A stretch of 47,958 nucleotides of DNA from an uncultured Verrucomicrobiae bacterium (lineage in GTDB: Bacteria; Verrucomicrobiota; Verrucomicrobiia; JADLBR01; CALLMV01): positions 1 through 47,958 of the forward strand of contig CALLMV010000040.1 in assembly GCA_938005615.1 (NCBI GenBank), in the 5' to 3' direction. A model generated the notes under the pieces. The model saw only the letters and a list, made by a program, of their open reading frames with translations, had not been told where the DNA came from and ran no database searches. Shown here in pieces: positions 5,690 to 47,958 of the stretch (position 1 is the stretch's first letter; each line of letters starts with the position of its first letter). Position numbers and translations under genes: made by a program.

Positions 5690-7357
5690 ATGATCAAACT
5701 CATTTGCCGTGTGGGTTTCATCTTAACCTGCGCTGTGTATCTCGTGTCGTTGTTCGTGAGAACACCCGCCGTTTATCCAGATCCTGCACCCGGTTTGCTC
5801 GCTGCTGCACAACATGTGAACGGGATTTCGCCTTCCTGGGATGTAATCAGGTCGTTTGATGTGTGCGAGGAGGGCCGCGAAATATTTTATCGCATCACCT
5901 GGTGGCCGCCAGGCTATCAGGCATTTCCTTGGTTATTTATGCGTTTTGCTGGATTAAGCTTAGGCTACTCTGTGAAGACCAGCACCTGGGTTTTACTCTT
6001 GTGCGGTTTTTGGGGTTGGTGGCTTTACTTTAAGCGGGTGTTGCCAGCAAGCTTGGCATTAGGAGCAATAACCACCATAGCGCTATGGAGGTTTGTTAAC
6101 AACTGGATTGATTACTACGATGGGGGAGAACTTTTACTTTTCGCATTTTCTCCTTGGGTGGTTTTGTTATCGGGAATTACCCAATTAAGCCATGACCGGG
6201 AGAGAGTTTTTTTTAAGTTAATTAGTTCGCTATTAGCGGGTTTTATTGTGGGTCTGTTAGTGTTTCTGAAATATAGTGCAATTGCAATTGCTGCAGGTAT
6301 TAGCCTCGCAGTCTTTTCAGCTTCGCTGAAGTATGGCAAGTTATCCGCGCTAGCTCGTTTGTTTTTTTTCGCTCTCGGCACTGCTATCCCAATTACTACC
6401 ACTTACTTTGGAATTTTACAGCACGGTGACTCACCAGACAAACCAGCTATCACCGGAGGTTGGAATTTATATCAGGTCTTATGGCACTGGATTTGTTGGC
6501 CGCTGGTGTTTGGTGATTGGGATGCATTGGGCCGCTATCTTATCCTCGACGATAACGCCGAGGATAAGGATCTACTTAAATTTTGGACTCTAGGTGCTAT
6601 GTGGATATTGTCTCTCTCTGTAATGCTTTGGGCAGTTTTTTCTGCTTGGAGTAAGAAAAAATATCGGAGAAAAAAAGTCCTGTCACAACTCAGTCAGGAA
6701 AGTTTTTTTTATCTCCAAGTCGGCGTATGGTGTTTGTTGGCGATGCTGATGTTAGTAAGTGTGCTGGGAATGCAAGGTGCAGCCCTTGCTTGGGAAGTTA
6801 GATATTATCGCATCCCCTGTTTGATTCTTTTTCCTTTTGTTATACTTTGTTTAAAATTTTTACTTGTTCAAAGAAACGCAAGAGTTCGATTTAATAAAAT
6901 CTTATCTATTCCTTCTATTATCTTAATGGGAATAGGCACGCTTTATGGTACCGTTTCTAGTTTAAACAAAACATTTTTAACAGCTCACTCGGAAGCTTAT
7001 GTTAGAAATATTTCAAATGGATACCGCGTTAGTATAAGTGCAAAAAGTACCAGACTGGATGATGTTTGTAATGTTGTAAGAAGTTTGAGCGTAATGTATA
7101 GAAACGATGTCTTTGTTGTTGAAAGTGAGGTTATTTCTTTGTTAATACCGGACTTACCTGTGATCAACTGGGAAAACTTTCGGTCTGTGTTAGAGTGCAA
7201 GGATTGGGAAAAACCAATCAAGAGCGCAATCGTTTTGGTGCGTAAAAATGCCCCCAGAGCTCTAATGAACGAGTCGAGCTTTTACCACTTTCATGACTGG
7301 AAAATAAGAGTATTATACGAAAACCCTGACTGGCAGGTTTTACGGTTGGAGTCCTGA
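5690..7357 (+). CDS. Polytopic membrane protein, possible GT-C glycosyltransferase
   Basis: A 555-residue protein with many hydrophobic segments in its first ~420 residues and a soluble C-terminal part of about 130 residues. An N-terminal membrane segment (about 5-25) is followed by an extracytoplasmic loop, a TWWPPG motif, then repeated membrane segments. This layout resembles the dolichyl-phosphate-mannose (ArnT/PMT-like) GT-C superfamily, but I see no decisive catalytic motif. It is a divergent paralogue of the protein at about 46.1-47.8 kb: both share TWW-PPG or TWWAPG, then an AGLSL segment, then a W-W-LY/LL-K/R block and a C-terminal W-Q-L end. The ATG at 5690 is preferred over an in-frame TTG at 5672. 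The gene is noticeably more AT-rich than its neighbours, especially from 6.8 kb on, consistent with horizontal transfer or relaxed selection. Confidence 0.75.
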   Translation: MIKLICRVGFILTCAVYLVSLFVRTPAVYPDPAPGLLAAAQHVNGISPSWDVIRSFDVCEEGREIFYRITWWPPGYQAFPWLFMRFAGLSLGYSVKTSTWVLLLCGFWGWWLYFKRVLPASLALGAITTIALWRFVNNWIDYYDGGELLLFAFSPWVVLLSGITQLSHDRERVFFKLISSLLAGFIVGLLVFLKYSAIAIAAGISLAVFSASLKYGKLSALARLFFFALGTAIPITTTYFGILQHGDSPDKPAITGGWNLYQVLWHWICWPLVFGDWDALGRYLILDDNAEDKDLLKFWTLGAMWILSLSVMLWAVFSAWSKKKYRRKKVLSQLSQESFFYLQVGVWCLLAMLMLVSVLGMQGAALAWEVRYYRIPCLILFPFVILCLKFLLVQRNARVRFNKILSIPSIILMGIGTLYGTVSSLNKTFLTAHSEAYVRNISNGYRVSISAKSTRLDDVCNVVRSLSVMYRNDVFVVESEVISLLIPDLPVINWENFRSVLECKDWEKPIKSAIVLVRKNAPRALMNESSFYHFHDWKIRVLYENPDWQVLRLES

Positions 7358-12726: not shown

Positions 12727-15438
12727 GTGAAAAATAAAAATGAATCAGAAGAACAACCCTGGCATGCGATGTCGGTTCAGGACGTTCTGAAGTATTATGA
12801 AACGAATGCGGAGCAGGGTCTGGCGTCAGAAAGTGCAGCGAAGCTCTTAAGTCATTACGGGCGCAATCTCTTGCCTCAAGTACGCAAGCAGCCGTCAATT
12901 GTGCGATTCTTGCTGCAGTTTCACAATGTTTTGATTTACATTTTATTAGTCGCAGGTGTGGGGAAACTGCTTCTCCAGGAGTGGATAGATGCTTCGGTGA
13001 TTTTTGGTGTGGTGATCATTAATGCGATGTTGGGCTTCCTTCAGGAAGGCAAGGCGGAAAAGGCACTGGATGCGATTAGAGGGATGTTATGCACTCAAGC
13101 CACCGTACTGCGGAATGGGAGGCAAAGCGTTGTGAACAGTGAAGAGCTTGTGCCGGGTGATGTGGTGCTTTTGGAGTCGGGCGACAAGGTTCCGGCTGAT
13201 TTACGCTTGATTACAGCAAGAAATCTTCGTGTGGAAGAAGCTGCGCTAACAGGTGAGTCTGTGCCAGTGAATAAGGGTGTGGACTCCGTGAGTGCGAATT
13301 GTTCCCTTGGGGACCGCACGTGTATGACTTACAGCGGGACGCTTGTCGTCTCAGGATGCGGCACAGGTGTAGTAGTCGCTACAGGATCAAAAACTGAGCT
13401 GGGCAAGATCAACAGGATGCTGGGTAATGTGAAGCAGCTTGAGACTCCGCTGTTGGCCCAGATCAAGAAATTTGCGGTCCTCGTTTCGGTAGTTATTTTG
13501 GTGATCAGCGCCATTACATTTACCTACGGTGTATTTGTGCGGGGTTTCGAGGTAGTGGCGATGTTCAAAGCGATGGTAGGTATTGCAGTTGCTGCAATTC
13601 CAGAGGGGTTGCCGGCGATCATTACCATCACACTTGCAATTGGAGTGCAACGGATGGCATCAAGGCGGTCTATCATCCGCAGATTGCCTGCGGTAGAGAC
13701 ATTGGGTTCAGTTACACGGATCTGCTCAGATAAAACGGGTACGTTGACGAAAAATGAAATGACGGTGATGTCGCTAATCACCAGTCGCACACGCTGGAAA
13801 GTCACCGGTACGGGATACGATCCCAAAGGCCAGGTGGTTGCTGAAAATAGAAACGATACTTTTTCAACTCACGGAATCAAAGAGGCAGCACTAATCGCGG
13901 CCCTTTGTAATGATGCCAGACTGGTCCAGAAGGACGAGGGTTGGAAGATTGAGGGCGATCCCACTGAGGGTGCGTTATTGCCCTTTGCAATAAAATGTGG
14001 TGCAGACCTAGATGCCCTCAGAGCAGAACTGCCAAGGGTGGATGTGATTCCGTTTGAGTCCGTTCACAAATATATGGCGACTTTGCACAAAACTGCTGCG
14101 GCTGATTTTACACTTTTGGTGAAAGGTGCCCCTGAAGTTGTGATGAATTCTTGTTTATATCAGTTATCAGCGAATGGTGCGAGGGAAGCACTAGAAAAAA
14201 CATTTTGGGATGATGCTGCACACAGCCTAGCCGCAGGCGGCCAGCGTGTATTGGCTCTCGCATGGAAACAAAATATCCCTCAGCGTCCCGAGAATTTTGA
14301 TGCTGCTTGGCTTCCGCAGGATCTGACGCTTGTGGGGTTAGTGGGCATCATGGACCCTCCAAGAGAAGAAGCTATTCAGGCTGTTGCAGAATGCCACGCG
14401 GGCGGGATCCGTGTAACGATGATCACCGGGGATCATGCATTGACAGCCGCAAGCATTGCAGCGCGCTTGGGAATCGGCGATGGGACTAAGGCACTTACCG
14501 GAGCACAACTGGAGATGATGAGTGATGAGGAATTGCTCCGCGCCTCGACCGAGGTGGATGTTTTTGCACGGACCAGCCCTGAGCACAAGCTGCGCTTAGT
14601 GCGTGCCTGCCAACAAAGAAACGACGTGGTGGCGATGACCGGCGACGGAGTTAATGATGCTCCGGCTCTCAAGCAGGCTGATGTGGGCGTAGCCATGGGC
14701 ATCAAAGGCACAGAGGTGACCAAGGAAGCCGCGGACATGGTGATTCTAGATGACAATTTTGCCTCAATCACCGCGGCTGTTCGGGAAGGGAGGACAGTCT
14801 ATAACAATATCGAGAAGGCCATTCTTTTTATATTACCAACCAACGGCGGCCAGGGGTTGACAATCATGGCAGCGGTATTTGCGGGGATGACGCTGCCCAT
14901 CACTGCTCCTCAGATTTTGTGGATCAACATGGTCACTTCCGTGACCCTCGCATTGGCCCTTTCCTTCGAGCCGCATGAGCAAGATGTTATGCGCCGACCT
15001 CCGCGTGAGGTGAAGCGCCCGCTGCTGGATGCTTTCGGAATGTGGCGAATCGCGTTTATTTCCGTGCTGATTTTAGGAGCAACCTTTTTAACGTTTTGGT
15101 TCATGAAAATGGCTGGGCAGAGTCTGGAGATGAGCCGCACAGCGGCAGTGAACGCACTGATTATCTGCCAAGTGGCATATTTACTGAACAGCCGGTGTAA
15201 ATTCCGCAGTGCGATACATGCCGGAATTTTATCTGGGAACATCTGGTTGCCGCTGTCGATCTTAGCGATTATCTTGTTGCAGGTTTTGTTTACTTATGCA
15301 CCTTGGATGAACGGGATATTTGGAACAGAACCTCTGCCAGGGGAAACTTGGCTCTGGCTGCTGCTGGCCGGAGTAGCATTTTTCCTATCTGTGGAACTCG
15401 AGAAGTGGATCATAAGAAAATTCGTTAAGATTGCTTGA
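12727..15438 (+). CDS. P-type cation-transporting ATPase (P2 type)
   Basis: A 903-residue membrane pump of the SERCA-like architecture. It has an N-terminal cation-ATPase domain, TGES at 175-178 (actuator domain), PEGLP at 292-296 in membrane helix M4, the phosphorylated aspartate Asp335 in SDKTGTLT, the MTGDGVNDAP hinge, and a C-terminal helical bundle. By comparison with SERCA from memory, M4 keeps the PEGLP glutamate, but the M5 stretch reads NGGQ where SERCA has NVGE, and M6 reads NMVTS where SERCA has NLVTD. Two acidic calcium ligands are thus replaced by Gln and Ser, so calcium specificity is doubtful and the ion is unknown. The start is GTG at 12727, with a weak AAGG 3 bases before it. 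It is convergent with typA, with 5 bases between them. Confidence 0.92.
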   Translation: MKNKNESEEQPWHAMSVQDVLKYYETNAEQGLASESAAKLLSHYGRNLLPQVRKQPSIVRFLLQFHNVLIYILLVAGVGKLLLQEWIDASVIFGVVIINAMLGFLQEGKAEKALDAIRGMLCTQATVLRNGRQSVVNSEELVPGDVVLLESGDKVPADLRLITARNLRVEEAALTGESVPVNKGVDSVSANCSLGDRTCMTYSGTLVVSGCGTGVVVATGSKTELGKINRMLGNVKQLETPLLAQIKKFAVLVSVVILVISAITFTYGVFVRGFEVVAMFKAMVGIAVAAIPEGLPAIITITLAIGVQRMASRRSIIRRLPAVETLGSVTRICSDKTGTLTKNEMTVMSLITSRTRWKVTGTGYDPKGQVVAENRNDTFSTHGIKEAALIAALCNDARLVQKDEGWKIEGDPTEGALLPFAIKCGADLDALRAELPRVDVIPFESVHKYMATLHKTAAADFTLLVKGAPEVVMNSCLYQLSANGAREALEKTFWDDAAHSLAAGGQRVLALAWKQNIPQRPENFDAAWLPQDLTLVGLVGIMDPPREEAIQAVAECHAGGIRVTMITGDHALTAASIAARLGIGDGTKALTGAQLEMMSDEELLRASTEVDVFARTSPEHKLRLVRACQQRNDVVAMTGDGVNDAPALKQADVGVAMGIKGTEVTKEAADMVILDDNFASITAAVREGRTVYNNIEKAILFILPTNGGQGLTIMAAVFAGMTLPITAPQILWINMVTSVTLALALSFEPHEQDVMRRPPREVKRPLLDAFGMWRIAFISVLILGATFLTFWFMKMAGQSLEMSRTAAVNALIICQVAYLLNSRCKFRSAIHAGILSGNIWLPLSILAIILLQVLFTYAPWMNGIFGTEPLPGETWLWLLLAGVAFFLSVELEKWIIRKFVKIA

Positions 15439-20518: not shown

Positions 20519-22429
20519 TTAGTTTGATTGTTGTTGGGGTGTTAATAGTTTAATTTTAATTTCTAGTCCGTTTTTGTCGAGCGTGGCCTTTTCGCTGGTT
20601 GTACTTCCGTCGTGAGTGATTGTGATGAGGTAATCACCCAGGAAGCCTCGGGTTGAAATGGTGCCAGTGGAATCTGTGGTGAGGTTGAGGTTGGTCTTCC
20701 ATTCTCCGTGCACTTTATCGAGCCAGGCTTTGCCGACGGGGCGAATGTTCCATTCACGATCCCAGAGTGCTGCATCTGGTGCCCAGTGTGCCCCCTCCCA
20801 GAATCCCCACATAGTGATGCCTTCAACGGCAGGGTGGCTGAAGACGATCGTGAGGTAGTCACTCATGTAGCTGGCTTGGAGTTCACGGTCGGTAATGTTG
20901 ATGTCGAGTTCTGTGATGTGAATGGGCAGGTTGTATAAGGCCATACGGTTTAGGATTTCGTAAACTCTATCAGGAGGTGTGAGCAGCCAGCCGAAGTGGC
21001 TCTGCTCGCCGAGTGCTTGGAGTGGGGCACCGTTTTCGAGAAGATATTCGACAATTTTGAAAAAGCCTTCTTGGTGGGCCACATTTAATCCTGCGTTGGT
21101 GAGTATGGAGAAATCGTTGATGAAGAGTTGCGGTGCGGAATCTGTGGCGTGTGCATGTTTAAACCATTCCACCATTTCAGTATCTCCGAGAACGTTCATA
21201 AAGTCGCGATTCGTGTAGGGCTCGTTGAGGACGTCCCACCAGGTGATCTTTCCTTTGGTTTGAGTCATGATGTCGCTGATGTGTTCTTTAAGGTAAGTGC
21301 GGAATAATTCGGGGGAGTTTTCAAAACGCGAACGCAGGTCGGGGGGATTGTATCGCCAACCGGGCCAGACGAGCGTATGGCCACGAATTTTTAAGCCGCG
21401 GTTGTGAAGCCATTCCACAGCCCGGCGGGCTGTATCTCTGTTGGTTTCGTGTACCCATGAGGCAAGTTTGTGGTGGTTTTCAAGGGTGGCTGCGTTGAAG
21501 AGTTCCTCGATTTTTTTGCGGTAAGTATCGGCGGATTTGCCGATGTGGTTAACGAGGACATCAGCATTGACAGCGGTGCCGAATGCAAAAGCGTGTTTCT
21601 GAAGCTTAAGATGTACATTTGCATCGGGCAGCGGGTTACCTTGTGGATCAAGGACTGTGATGGTGATGTCCGCTTTGCGGAATTTTTCAATGCGCTCTGC
21701 GGCCGCTTTGCGCCAGGGAGCATCGGGTTCTCTGCCGGGGTAAGTGAATTCTGTGCGCGGAAGGTCTTCTATTTTTGCGGAGGTACCGTAGTAGACGAAG
21801 AGGATATCCTTGACGTCGATTGATTGATTGGGGAATCCGAGGTGTAATGCTAACTGAGAGGTGTTTGGGGAGTAGTCGCGGAGGGACGTGTAAGCGAAAT
21901 AGTAGGTTTTCCAGTCTGGGCCGACACTTACGGAGCCGGCGAGGGATTTGTCGTAGGGCTCTCCATTGTCTTCGTGGTTGAGGGTGGCGAAGGCTTCAGA
22001 TGTGGTGGATTTGTGGGCGCGGGCAGTGATTTGTGCGGCGATGACGTCACCTTTTTTGAAAGATCGGTCAAATGGATAGTGAAAACCGACCCCCCAGGGG
22101 GCAGAGGGCAAAAAGTCTGTTGTAATTCTGAGAAATACTTCGCCATTCTCGTCCTCCAATCGTTCAATTGTTGCTTTGGATGCGTCTGCGCCGACGAGCT
22201 TCATTTTGTCCATTTCTGCTTTGGAGAAGAATGCGATTCCTCCAGGGTGCAAGGTCGGTTGGGGTGTAGGGGGCTGGGTTGGTTGCTCGTGAGAGGTTTC
22301 TGTTACGTGTGCTTCTTCCGGTGTTGGAGCGGGTTCAGTTTCAGTTTTACTTTCTTTGCATGAAGTGAGTAATGCAAAGCTGAGTGTGAATAAGCTGATC
22401 GGAAGAATGTTGAGGGCGCGTTTTTTCAT
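20519..22429 (-). CDS. GH10 endo-1,4-beta-xylanase, lipoprotein
   Basis: A 636-residue secreted lipoprotein. The lipobox LTSC places the lipidated cysteine at residue 24, followed by a Pro/Thr/Glu-rich linker (about 25-62), a beta-rich module (about 65-215) resembling a CBM4/9-type carbohydrate-binding domain, and a GH10 catalytic domain (about 270-590). The catalytic pair is visible: acid/base Glu403 in DVLNEP and nucleophile Glu507 in ITELDI, with the GHTLVW motif at 350-355. GH10 enzymes cleave xylan backbones. The lipid anchor suggests a cell-surface or periplasmic site. Its ATG overlaps the stop of the upstream regulator by four bases (ATGA), implying translational coupling. Confidence 0.95.
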   Translation of the reverse strand: MKKRALNILPISLFTLSFALLTSCKESKTETEPAPTPEEAHVTETSHEQPTQPPTPQPTLHPGGIAFFSKAEMDKMKLVGADASKATIERLEDENGEVFLRITTDFLPSAPWGVGFHYPFDRSFKKGDVIAAQITARAHKSTTSEAFATLNHEDNGEPYDKSLAGSVSVGPDWKTYYFAYTSLRDYSPNTSQLALHLGFPNQSIDVKDILFVYYGTSAKIEDLPRTEFTYPGREPDAPWRKAAAERIEKFRKADITITVLDPQGNPLPDANVHLKLQKHAFAFGTAVNADVLVNHIGKSADTYRKKIEELFNAATLENHHKLASWVHETNRDTARRAVEWLHNRGLKIRGHTLVWPGWRYNPPDLRSRFENSPELFRTYLKEHISDIMTQTKGKITWWDVLNEPYTNRDFMNVLGDTEMVEWFKHAHATDSAPQLFINDFSILTNAGLNVAHQEGFFKIVEYLLENGAPLQALGEQSHFGWLLTPPDRVYEILNRMALYNLPIHITELDINITDRELQASYMSDYLTIVFSHPAVEGITMWGFWEGAHWAPDAALWDREWNIRPVGKAWLDKVHGEWKTNLNLTTDSTGTISTRGFLGDYLITITHDGSTTSEKATLDKNGLEIKIKLLTPQQQSN

Positions 22430-23520
22430 GATTGGGTAAGGTGATTGTAGTATTTTTGAGAGTTTTTGTTGGTGGATAGTCTGATTTGCAGAGTTGGTTC
22501 GATGGCTTTTTGAACGAGTTCGGTAGTGAAATTCGTGTGTAGGCTGATGAGTAGTTTGGCAGATTCAGCACCGATTGTTTCGAGTCCGTTTTCGACGGAT
22601 GTGATGGGGAAGGGGAGCAGCGTTGCCGCTGTGTTGTCGATTCCTGCAATAGCGATCTGGTCTGGGACACGGATCCCTCTGTGTAAAAGATTGTGGTAGA
22701 TGGCTGCGGCGTACGTATCGTTGAAGGCGAAGATCCCGTCGGGAAAAGGTTCTAGTTTAAGTAACCAATCTGTCTCGCGACGGCAAAAGTCCGGGTCATC
22801 GAGCTTTTGTTGCTTTTGGTAGGGCACAGAGAGCGCGCGGTTCGATTGGAGTGTTTTACCATTTAGGGCCATGGCTTCGCGAAAGCCGTAGAGCCTCTCT
22901 AAGCCAACTTGGTTGTCGCGATAAATGACTGCAGGGTGTGAGATGCCGTTTTCTTGAAAATGCTGTCCAATTAAAAAGCCGCATTTGTGATCATCATGGT
23001 AGATGCAGTGGAAGTTGGAGTTTTTTCTCGTCATTAGCACAATAGGGAAGCCTTCTGTATGGAGACGTAAGATAAGGTTACTTTCTCCGGGTGATGGCAA
23101 AGTGACAAGAAGACCAGTGCAGCCGTTTTTTAAAAATTCCCGCACAAGTTCTTCTACTTTTCCCATCCGGTCATGATGATAGTGGCAGAAGTAGGAGACA
23201 GATTTTGAACTAAGGACTTTAGTTATACCCATCATCAGCTTGAGGTAGGAAATGCTTTCATTGGTGAGGATGATGCCAACCTTTGCTTTTGTATGGAGAG
23301 ATGAAATGTCGTTGAGCACTGTACCGCGTTTTTTGACGCGGCGGACCCAGCCGCGCGTAACCAATTCAGAATAAGCTCTGCGTACGGTGGCCACGCTGAC
23401 CTTGCGTTGCGAAGCGAGGTCAATGTCAGATGGTAAGACGTCCCCGGGCTGATATTTGCCAGATCGGATCAATTGATCCAGGTAAACGAGAACTTCTTGA
23501 TGCAGATGCTTAGCTGACAT
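22426..23520 (-). CDS. GntR/LacI hybrid transcriptional regulator
   Basis: A 364-residue regulator with a GntR-type winged helix-turn-helix at about 6-72 (GDVLPSDIDLA, then VSVATVRRAYSELVTRGWV) joined to a LacI/periplasmic-binding-protein-like sugar-sensing domain (about 76-350; the VPDQIAIAGIDN block is typical). This architecture is the AraR/sugar-regulator type. Its stop overlaps the xylanase start by 4 bases, so it very likely controls the xylan operon and itself. A 78-base AT-rich divergent gap separates it from the pseudopilin-like gene. Overlapping control of that gene is plausible but unproven. Confidence 0.92.
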   Translation of the reverse strand: MSAKHLHQEVLVYLDQLIRSGKYQPGDVLPSDIDLASQRKVSVATVRRAYSELVTRGWVRRVKKRGTVLNDISSLHTKAKVGIILTNESISYLKLMMGITKVLSSKSVSYFCHYHHDRMGKVEELVREFLKNGCTGLLVTLPSPGESNLILRLHTEGFPIVLMTRKNSNFHCIYHDDHKCGFLIGQHFQENGISHPAVIYRDNQVGLERLYGFREAMALNGKTLQSNRALSVPYQKQQKLDDPDFCRRETDWLLKLEPFPDGIFAFNDTYAAAIYHNLLHRGIRVPDQIAIAGIDNTAATLLPFPITSVENGLETIGAESAKLLISLHTNFTTELVQKAIEPTLQIRLSTNKNSQKYYNHLTQS

Positions 23521-28707: not shown

Positions 28708-29112
28708 ATGAAAATCCCACGCGAAGCCCAGCGAATTGCAAGAAAGCTCTTTCAGATATGTCTCGAAAGAGACGGCTCGCTTAACTCCGACACCTTGAAA
28801 AAGATCATCGCAAAAATACTCGATGAGCGTCCTCGGTTTACTGTGGGCATCCTTCAAAGGCTACATGAGCTTTGCCGATTACACCTCGCCCAATCAACAG
28901 CCAAAGTTACATCGGCCCACCCCCTCGGCTCATTCGAAACGGAGATCCGTCAGCGGCTGCACTCAGTTTTTCATCACATCCGCGAAATCCAATTTCACAC
29001 AGATCCTTCCCTCCTGGGAGGGCTCAAAATTCAAATCGGCTCCCACGTCTGGGACAGCTCTATCAGACAGAAACTAAAAACACTCGAAGAATCACTAGCC
29101 CAATCTATCTAA
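28708..29112 (+). CDS. atpH: ATP synthase F1 subunit delta, short form
   Basis: The stator protein linking the F1 head to subunit b. Its C-terminal part (about 66-134) carries the recognisable VTSAHPL and [20 protein letters not shown] blocks, the latter the standard delta signature. At 134 residues it is about 45 shorter than the usual delta subunit, the loss being in the N-terminal helical domain. Similar short deltas occur, from memory, in some Acidobacteria and Verrucomicrobia. The position between atpF and atpA supports the call. Confidence 0.9.
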
Positions 29113-45977: not shown

Positions 45978-46229
45978 AACATTATGCAAATTACAAAAAC
46001 TTCGCGCAAATGAACAGGATTATCGGAATAATCTGACGATTCAACATGAGCAGAAGCTAGGCGCGAAATTTTCAGTTCGCGCAACAAAAATCCGCTTCTA
46101 TGATCAGCAGCTATAAAATATCTCCAACAACAACTACTGCGACATTGGCCATTCTGGGGAGCTCTTTGCACCATTTTATTTGTTGCGTTTCTTCGAGCCT
46201 TTTCTCCGACTTATGTTCATTGGGATGGG

Positions 46230-47819
46230 GTGGCGCAGGTAGAGACGGCGTGGCGCTGGAGCAATGGTTTGGGATTTACCAGTTCACTCTTTATCAAACA
46301 TCCTGATGATCTGGCCGCTACACTAGAATACCAGAAGATGACTTGGTGGGCACCGGGTGCGCCTGCAGTAATGGGATTACTGCTGCGCGCGGGTCTTAGT
46401 TTAGAATGGGCTTATAAAATTTACATGTTATCGACCATAATAATTGGCTGGATGGGTTGGTTGCTACTAGCAAAAAGATACTTAGCTGACTACCTGTGCC
46501 GTTTCTTTTGGGCTGGCGTTCTGTTCTGTGTGCTGCCATTGCAAATGACCCCGCTCAGAGATCCCGACGAGATGGCTGGCTGGGCGGTCCTGCCTTGGTT
46601 AGGATTAGCAGTTGCGTCACTTTACTCGAATCGCTGGCTTTTAGTCGCCTTCATTTTAGGCATCCTGTCTGCGGTAAGTTTATTTTTTTGGTATCATTCT
46701 TTGCATTATTTGGCAGTGGTCGTGTTTGTGACCGCTATGTTGCAGATAGATTGGAGGAAGCGAATTGTCTCGATCATATTTGTTGCATCGCCAGCCGGAT
46801 TGGTTTGGGTTCTCCTGCAGCTTTGGTCAGGTTCCGGCATAAGTTATTTGCAAAATTCTCAGGCTGGATTTATCGAACAAGTTAGATTATTTCTGGAGGC
46901 GGTTGCATCAACCGGAATTGCGCCCCTCATTGGGCTAATTTATCGATTCTTGCCTAGTCAGTTAGTTATTATAATCGATTCCTGGAGCGACAATCAATGG
47001 TGGTTAGGATGGATCTGGATGATAATATGGTTAGTTATAATTTTCTTTTTTCTGAAGTGGTATTTGAGACGCACAAAAGAAGAAGCTAAGTTAGCTGCGA
47101 ACAAGTTATTTTTTATCAGCGTGGTTATAACTTTACCATTATTTTTGATAGGGGCATCCATTTCTGTTATGAATTATCATGTTTATTCAGAGCAGCTGAT
47201 GTATTACTACTCTCTGTATCCTACGTGGATATTTGCCGGATTGTTGTTTGCTTCTAACTTTCAAAAACAACGCTGTATGATAAATATTGGAGTTATAGTA
47301 TTGGCTAATTTTTTTGTTATATTGAGTGTGATTGCGATGTTCCCCCAACCCTCGGTGTTTAGGGCTAATTTGTTAGGATACAGTTATGAAGGTGATCACC
47401 TCGCGCGCCAGAGAATCAGTTTTATTCAACCAAATTATCGAGACATGCTGTTGGAGGATCTACGAGACTGCTCACGCGGTATAGTTTTTACGCAGCATCC
47501 ACAGCACTATGCATTAATTTATCAGGATTCTGCACATAGTTTTCGCCCGCCGCCCTTTCGTGAATACTGGAAAAGGTGCTACAGTTCTGCGCCAGTCACT
47601 GTTTATTTTATTTTTCCAGAAGGCACAGCACCGTTGCCGTCGAAGCACTTTATGTTTACTGTTCGAGACCGCACTGAACATGAACCGATGACAGAGTTAA
47701 CGAAGTTACCTGGTTGGCAAAGGTTAGATGGCAAAGTCTGGGAACTGGGATCGCCACAAGTCATCTATCGTGCAGATATTCCTGCAGGGTGGCGGGGGGA
47801 AGAACTTTTTAAACAATAA
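46230..47819 (+). CDS. Polytopic membrane protein, possible GT-C glycosyltransferase; 5' end disturbed
   Basis: A protein of at least 529 residues with a TWWAPG motif, an AGLSL segment and about ten hydrophobic segments, then a soluble C-terminal part. It is a divergent paralogue of the protein at 5.7 kb. GTG 46230 is the first usual start in frame, but it is unlikely to be genuine: the frame stays open back to a stop at 46101, and those 42 codons encode a convincing first membrane segment (WPFWGALCTILFVAFLRAF) with no ATG, GTG or TTG. An ATG at 46100 lies in another frame, one base off. The gene is thus either frameshifted near its 5' end or started at a rare codon such as CTG 46137. It is divergent from a DPMS-type GT2, which supports a lipid-linked sugar transfer role. 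Confidence 0.7.
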   Translation: MAQVETAWRWSNGLGFTSSLFIKHPDDLAATLEYQKMTWWAPGAPAVMGLLLRAGLSLEWAYKIYMLSTIIIGWMGWLLLAKRYLADYLCRFFWAGVLFCVLPLQMTPLRDPDEMAGWAVLPWLGLAVASLYSNRWLLVAFILGILSAVSLFFWYHSLHYLAVVVFVTAMLQIDWRKRIVSIIFVASPAGLVWVLLQLWSGSGISYLQNSQAGFIEQVRLFLEAVASTGIAPLIGLIYRFLPSQLVIIIDSWSDNQWWLGWIWMIIWLVIIFFFLKWYLRRTKEEAKLAANKLFFISVVITLPLFLIGASISVMNYHVYSEQLMYYYSLYPTWIFAGLLFASNFQKQRCMINIGVIVLANFFVILSVIAMFPQPSVFRANLLGYSYEGDHLARQRISFIQPNYRDMLLEDLRDCSRGIVFTQHPQHYALIYQDSAHSFRPPPFREYWKRCYSSAPVTVYFIFPEGTAPLPSKHFMFTVRDRTEHEPMTELTKLPGWQRLDGKVWELGSPQVIYRADIPAGWRGEELFKQ

Positions 47820-47822
47820 ACC

Positions 47823-47958
47823 TTGGAAGGTGAACCTATAAATCTTAGCGAATTTGCAGGGAAAGTCGCCTTAGTTGTTAACGTAGCTTCCCGCTGTGGA
47901 TTTACCGGCCAGTACAAAGATCTGCAATCTCTCCACGAAGAATTCAGCCCGCGGGGTT
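47823..47958 (+). CDS. Glutathione peroxidase, 5' part only
   Basis: The frame from TTG 47823 runs off the window edge. The product begins LEGEPINLSEFAGKVALVVN and continues VASRCGFTGQY, the peroxidatic block of the glutathione/thioredoxin peroxidase family, with Cys (TGT) rather than selenocysteine and with Gly where Pro is usual in FTPQY. Relatives normally have about eight residues before the TLEG/TLDG region forming the first strand. Here the stop codon of the preceding membrane-protein gene lies in the same frame only one codon upstream, so the N-terminus is short or the gene is damaged. No Shine-Dalgarno is seen. Confidence 0.8.
   Translation, partial: MEGEPINLSEFAGKVALVVNVASRCGFTGQYKDLQSLHEEFSPRG

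Follow-up and report, generated by a model that had tools for sequence, protein, structure and literature searches.

Where does translation of a gene begin when its reading frame continues well upstream of the first usual start codon, and why is a usual start codon absent from that upstream part? The question was raised by a gene at the end of contig CALLMV010000040.1 of an uncultured Verrucomicrobiae bacterium. The window analysed here was the entire contig 40, a stretch of 47,958 nucleotides, which belongs to a draft genome of 1.67 Mb in 51 contigs (76% complete). The gene (46230–47819) is AT-rich, and it encodes a polytopic membrane protein whose C-terminal part is soluble.

The open frame upstream of GTG 46230

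A sequence-only reading of this DNA had reported that the frame is open back to TGA 46101, that the 42 extra codons contain no ATG, GTG or TTG, and that an ATG at 46100 is displaced from the frame by one base. In our study, the coordinates of the open frame were found to be exact, and the displacement of the ATG was confirmed in the sequence (Table 1). Besides the usual start codons, the table-11 starts of frame 0 were ATA 46113, CTG 46137 and ATT 46173. The extension contained a cytoplasmic tail, followed by TM helix 1 and the opening part of the first extracytoplasmic loop. TM helix 1 occupied about residues 16–33 of the stop-to-stop protein, where the extension has its hydropathy peak, and the loop contained a conserved Asp at residue 41 (codon at 46224).

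Table 1. Positions of the gene, its candidate starts and related features in the window
Feature	Position	Strand	Basis or remark
Paralogue with the same N-terminal architecture	5690..7357	+	Ordinary ATG start (or TTG 5672)
ATG, one base out of frame	46100..46102	+	Candidate start, provided that an indel is located between it and about 46163
TGA stop bounding frame 0 upstream	46101..46103	+	Sequence reading
Upstream extension, 42 codons	46104..46229	+	Open frame; ten homologues; ungapped BLASTP to the G011 homologue; hydropathy peak
ATA, in-frame near-cognate start candidate	46113..46115	+	Conserved Asp would be residue 38
CTG, in-frame near-cognate start candidate	46137..46139	+	Conserved Asp would be residue 30
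Rest of the membrane-protein gene	46230..47819	+	First usual start codon is GTG 46230, very probably not the translation start
5' end of a glutathione peroxidase gene, cut by the contig end	47820..47958	+	First usual start, TTG 47823, is inside the conserved domain

The survey of starts and upstream frames took in about 1.03 Mb of the 1.67-Mb genome. At least 42 open codons were present before the first start in 6 of the 352 scored genes (1.7%), and in nearly all of the genes with a long open upstream stretch the stretch scored as non-coding. The gene at 20522–22564 of the same window contained an open stretch of 45 codons before its first usual start. The length of the open stretch is therefore, by itself, weak evidence for coding. 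The coding-potential scores of the extension gave no clear verdict, as the gene is AT-rich and the scoring model was weak.

At 45996–46007 and 46061–46082, the divergent intergenic region was found to contain inverted-repeat arms (AAAACTTCGCGC / GCGCGAAATTTT) and, near them, a GCGCGAA...TTCGCGC palindrome. The inverted repeat and the palindrome are possibly an operator, or they arose by chance. The promoter and terminator scans gave no match.

Homologues of the extension

The comparison set contained ten full-length homologues (the paralogue of this contig and nine proteins encoded by other genomes of the class), which were found by profile searches and chosen as comparable over their full N-termini. 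The first membrane helix and the loop were present upstream of the 46230-equivalent residue in all ten. An alignment of homologues had been proposed earlier as a check on the coding status of the extension, and each of the ten was found to begin upstream of that residue, none at or after it. The loop Asp at the place of Asp 41 was conserved in nine; in the homologue G037 it was substituted by Asn. The spacing from Met to this Asp ranged between 31 and 54 residues in the homologues and was 31 in the paralogue at 5690–7357. An ATG was present near the expected place in every homologue but G037, for which GTG or TTG are the candidate starts.

When the protein was compared with a profile of the homologues from which the query had been left out, the score was 55.7 bits with the 42 extra residues and 45.8 bits without them. 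A score of 55.7 bits was reached by none of 1000 shuffles, by neither of the other frames and by one of 487 substitute windows taken from the protein itself. The BLASTP alignment to the G011 homologue was ungapped over 104 residues (27% identity, 2e-7) and reached 22 residues upstream of 46230, with the G011 start codon opposite about 46122. The extension had also been said to line up with the N-terminus of the 5.7-kb paralogue, and this was borne out by a BLASTP match (2e-5) just downstream of the extension and by the alignment of the Asp and an NG in the loop.

The ten homologues, the ungapped BLASTP alignment and the start-site statistics agree with the earlier proposal that the gene continues upstream of 46230, and on these grounds the N-terminus very probably lies upstream, GTG 46230 not being the start of the gene. 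The contrary reading, with a protein start at GTG 46230 and a non-coding open frame before it, is highly improbable. Although no usual start codon precedes GTG 46230 in its frame, a start there would remove TM helix 1 and the Asp that nine of the ten homologues possess. Its context ranked below all of the 247 true starts scored (0th percentile), the worst of the starts tested, so that this start is largely refuted by homology and start context together.

Close relatives were not found in 57 relatives, in the order, in the GTDB contig collection or in viral contigs. A seven-row alignment was too diverged for the contig scan.

Candidate starts and the cause of the missing start codon

In the 1.03 Mb surveyed, the frequency of the Shine-Dalgarno motif before starts was equal to random. 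The leaders before starts were A-rich (A at −10/−11) and G-poor, and position −1 was C or T. A scarcity of Shine-Dalgarno sequences has been reported for Akkermansia and another verrucomicrobial bacterium (PMC10783764). The present genome presumably has its place near these two.

The start contexts were ranked against the 247 true starts. The highest rank was that of CTG 46137 (82nd percentile), followed by ATA 46113 (56th) and ATG 46100 (34th). The mRNA accessibility was best at CTG 46137, where the mRNA had less structure than around 85% of the true starts, followed by ATG 46100 and ATA 46113, which were equal, and was worst at GTG 46230. In the model of the whole start region, ATA 46113 scored 3.7 bits, CTG 46137 1.9 bits and GTG 46230 −20 bits, and ATG 46100 reached at most 2.1 bits when an indel was allowed. 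By this compositional model GTG 46230 is rejected, and the three upstream candidates are too close to separate. The spacing from Met to the conserved Asp was 42 for ATG 46100 (with an indel), 38 for ATA 46113 and 30 for CTG 46137. The true start lies at about 46100–46137, and composition and mRNA accessibility narrow it no further.

Three causes had been offered for the absence of a usual start: a one-base indel, a start at CTG 46137 or ATA 46113, and a +1 frameshift. The first two survived our analysis, whereas programmed frameshifting has no positive support. In our judgement, which was not computed, a one-nucleotide lesion or error is favoured and a near-cognate start is a close second. The one-base indel falls just short of an even chance of being the reason. 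It would part ATG 46100 from the remaining frame and leave no usual start in frame. Such an indel may be a recent real lesion in the strain or a consensus error of the draft genome, and we divide our belief roughly evenly between the two. A working copy of the gene would start at ATG 46100, which would place the conserved Asp near residue 42, within the range of the homologues. The indel is suggested by the position of ATG 46100, which is rightly placed and whose frame contains no stop before TM helix 1, and also by the presence of other broken genes in the genome, the next gene likewise being devoid of a normal N-terminus. According to a survey of prokaryotic genomes, isolated and homology-validated frame breaks are expected to be mostly sequencing errors or recent mutations (PMC3711429). 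The present locus would resemble the pseudogenes and sequencing-error frameshifts of that survey in having an isolated one-base break in an otherwise intact gene, but the break here would precede TM helix 1 and would thus mimic a missing start rather than split the gene. Against the indel, the broken genes elsewhere in the genome mostly contain in-frame stops or deletions rather than one-base indels, the remainder of the 46230–47819 gene is intact, and the in-frame near-cognate codons have contexts equal to or better than that of ATG 46100. Also against the indel, a copy of the locus with an unbroken frame was found in none of the genomes searched. The CAA/CTA stretch had been named as a candidate for the site of the indel. 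It has no special standing as one, since three-letter units fail to account for a shift of one base; an indel, if present, could fall anywhere from about 46103 to 46163.

An intact gene whose start is an in-frame near-cognate codon, CTG 46137 or ATA 46113, is a substantial possibility, slightly less probable than the indel. Its expression would then be low, and initiation would depend on an A-rich, G-poor and unstructured leader as in other genes of the genome. CTG 46137 is one transition away from TTG and ATA 46113 one transition away from ATG. The leaders of this genome, which lack Shine-Dalgarno enrichment, the context ranks of the two codons, the weak mRNA structure around CTG 46137 and their spacings to the Asp, within or just below the range of the homologues, all argue for such a start. 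As in known bacterial near-cognate starts (CTG, ATA, ATT), candidates are present in frame at the expected place with a leader-like context; here, however, the two codons are putative starts, proposed on their context. The homologues have ordinary start codons, and the whole-start-region model shows no preference for CTG over ATG 46100 with an indel or over ATA. Outside broken genes, no other clear start-less coding extension was found in the 1.03 Mb, in a survey that is insensitive to short extensions. A start at ATG 46100 with a programmed +1 frameshift into frame 0 within the first codons is very improbable. The shift is geometrically possible, as no stop interrupts the ATG 46100 frame in this region, but such an arrangement was found in no homologue, the frames of the homologues being unbroken, and neither a conserved site nor a known frameshift gene family is involved. 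Among the frame-broken genes of 1106 complete genomes, 146 recoding-like clusters were found as against 4010 pseudogene clusters (PMC3711429).

The small genome carries pseudogenes. The Pfam match of the glutathione peroxidase (47811–47958) crosses TAA 47817–47819, which ends the membrane-protein gene, and since the conserved domain has already begun at its first usual start, the peroxidase is without a normal N-terminus. The flavin amine oxidase gene (L074:14700–16043) contained an in-frame TAA (14868–14870) in the FAD-binding region and was otherwise full-length; the full Pfam domain was regained on reading through the TAA. A decayed gene for a glycogen-debranching enzyme with several breaks and the 5'-truncated remnant of a PfkB-type sugar kinase were found at L024:429–1394 and L022:1318–1731 (minus strand), respectively. 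Stop-codon reassignment was considered, since the breaks in the peroxidase, the amine oxidase and the debranching enzyme are TAA, and was ruled out: TAA ends 284 of 608 genes, and a scan of the available sequence for a suppressor tRNA gave none. The ATP synthase delta subunit of the window (28708–29112) was only 134 aa long, and its match to the Pfam OSCP profile was confined to the second half; it is probably a short form of the lineage rather than a break. The missing start codon of the membrane-protein gene is most likely an ordinary annotation puzzle with a mundane cause, and not new biology.

The protein family and its likeness to GT-C glycosyltransferases

The 46230–47819 product had no match in Pfam, NCBIfam or solved-structure entries, GT-C families included. 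About ten hydropathy peaks were present along the protein, one of them in the extension, which indicates a polytopic membrane core. The protein resembles an unannotated family of membrane proteins of the same class (L003–L008, L011–L013, L017, L020) in its length (525–578 aa), TM helix 1, Asp-bearing loop, (T)WW-P-G motif and PW motif. The members of the family differ in having ordinary start codons, and their identity to the query protein is 17–19%.

Like the GT-CA glycosyltransferases PimE, ArnT, ALG6 and PglB, the protein has many membrane helices and a soluble C-terminal part, and its first extracytoplasmic loop bears an acidic residue (Asp 41) immediately behind TM helix 1. In the GT-C plan the acidic residue after TM helix 1 is the catalytic base, and in PimE this is D58 at the tip of JM1 (PMC12041525). 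From these three features together we infer that the product may be GT-C-glycosyltransferase-like; in contrast to the known GT-CA enzymes, it is without a sequence match to any of the entries searched. A two-sequence AlphaFold2 model had a pLDDT of 37, too poor for fold comparison. The contig neighbours included a family 2 glycosyltransferase and methyltransferases.

The upstream open frame is very probably the genuine 5' end of the gene, whose product would be a polytopic membrane protein of GT-C-glycosyltransferase-like character. Its translation has to begin at about 46100–46137 for TM helix 1 to be inserted and for the Asp loop to reach the extracytoplasmic side. The region of the start site was shown by homology, and we infer the topology and the catalysis. 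Gene callers would place the start at GTG 46230 and thereby drop both TM helix 1 and the Asp that is putatively catalytic, which would result in a wrong topology and a wrong enzyme model. It is quite possible, though less likely than not, that a bacterium without Shine-Dalgarno use starts a GT-like membrane gene at CTG (or ATA) through an unstructured, A-rich and G-poor leader. The locus offers a small and concrete case in which the tolerance of such bacteria for near-cognate starts can be examined.
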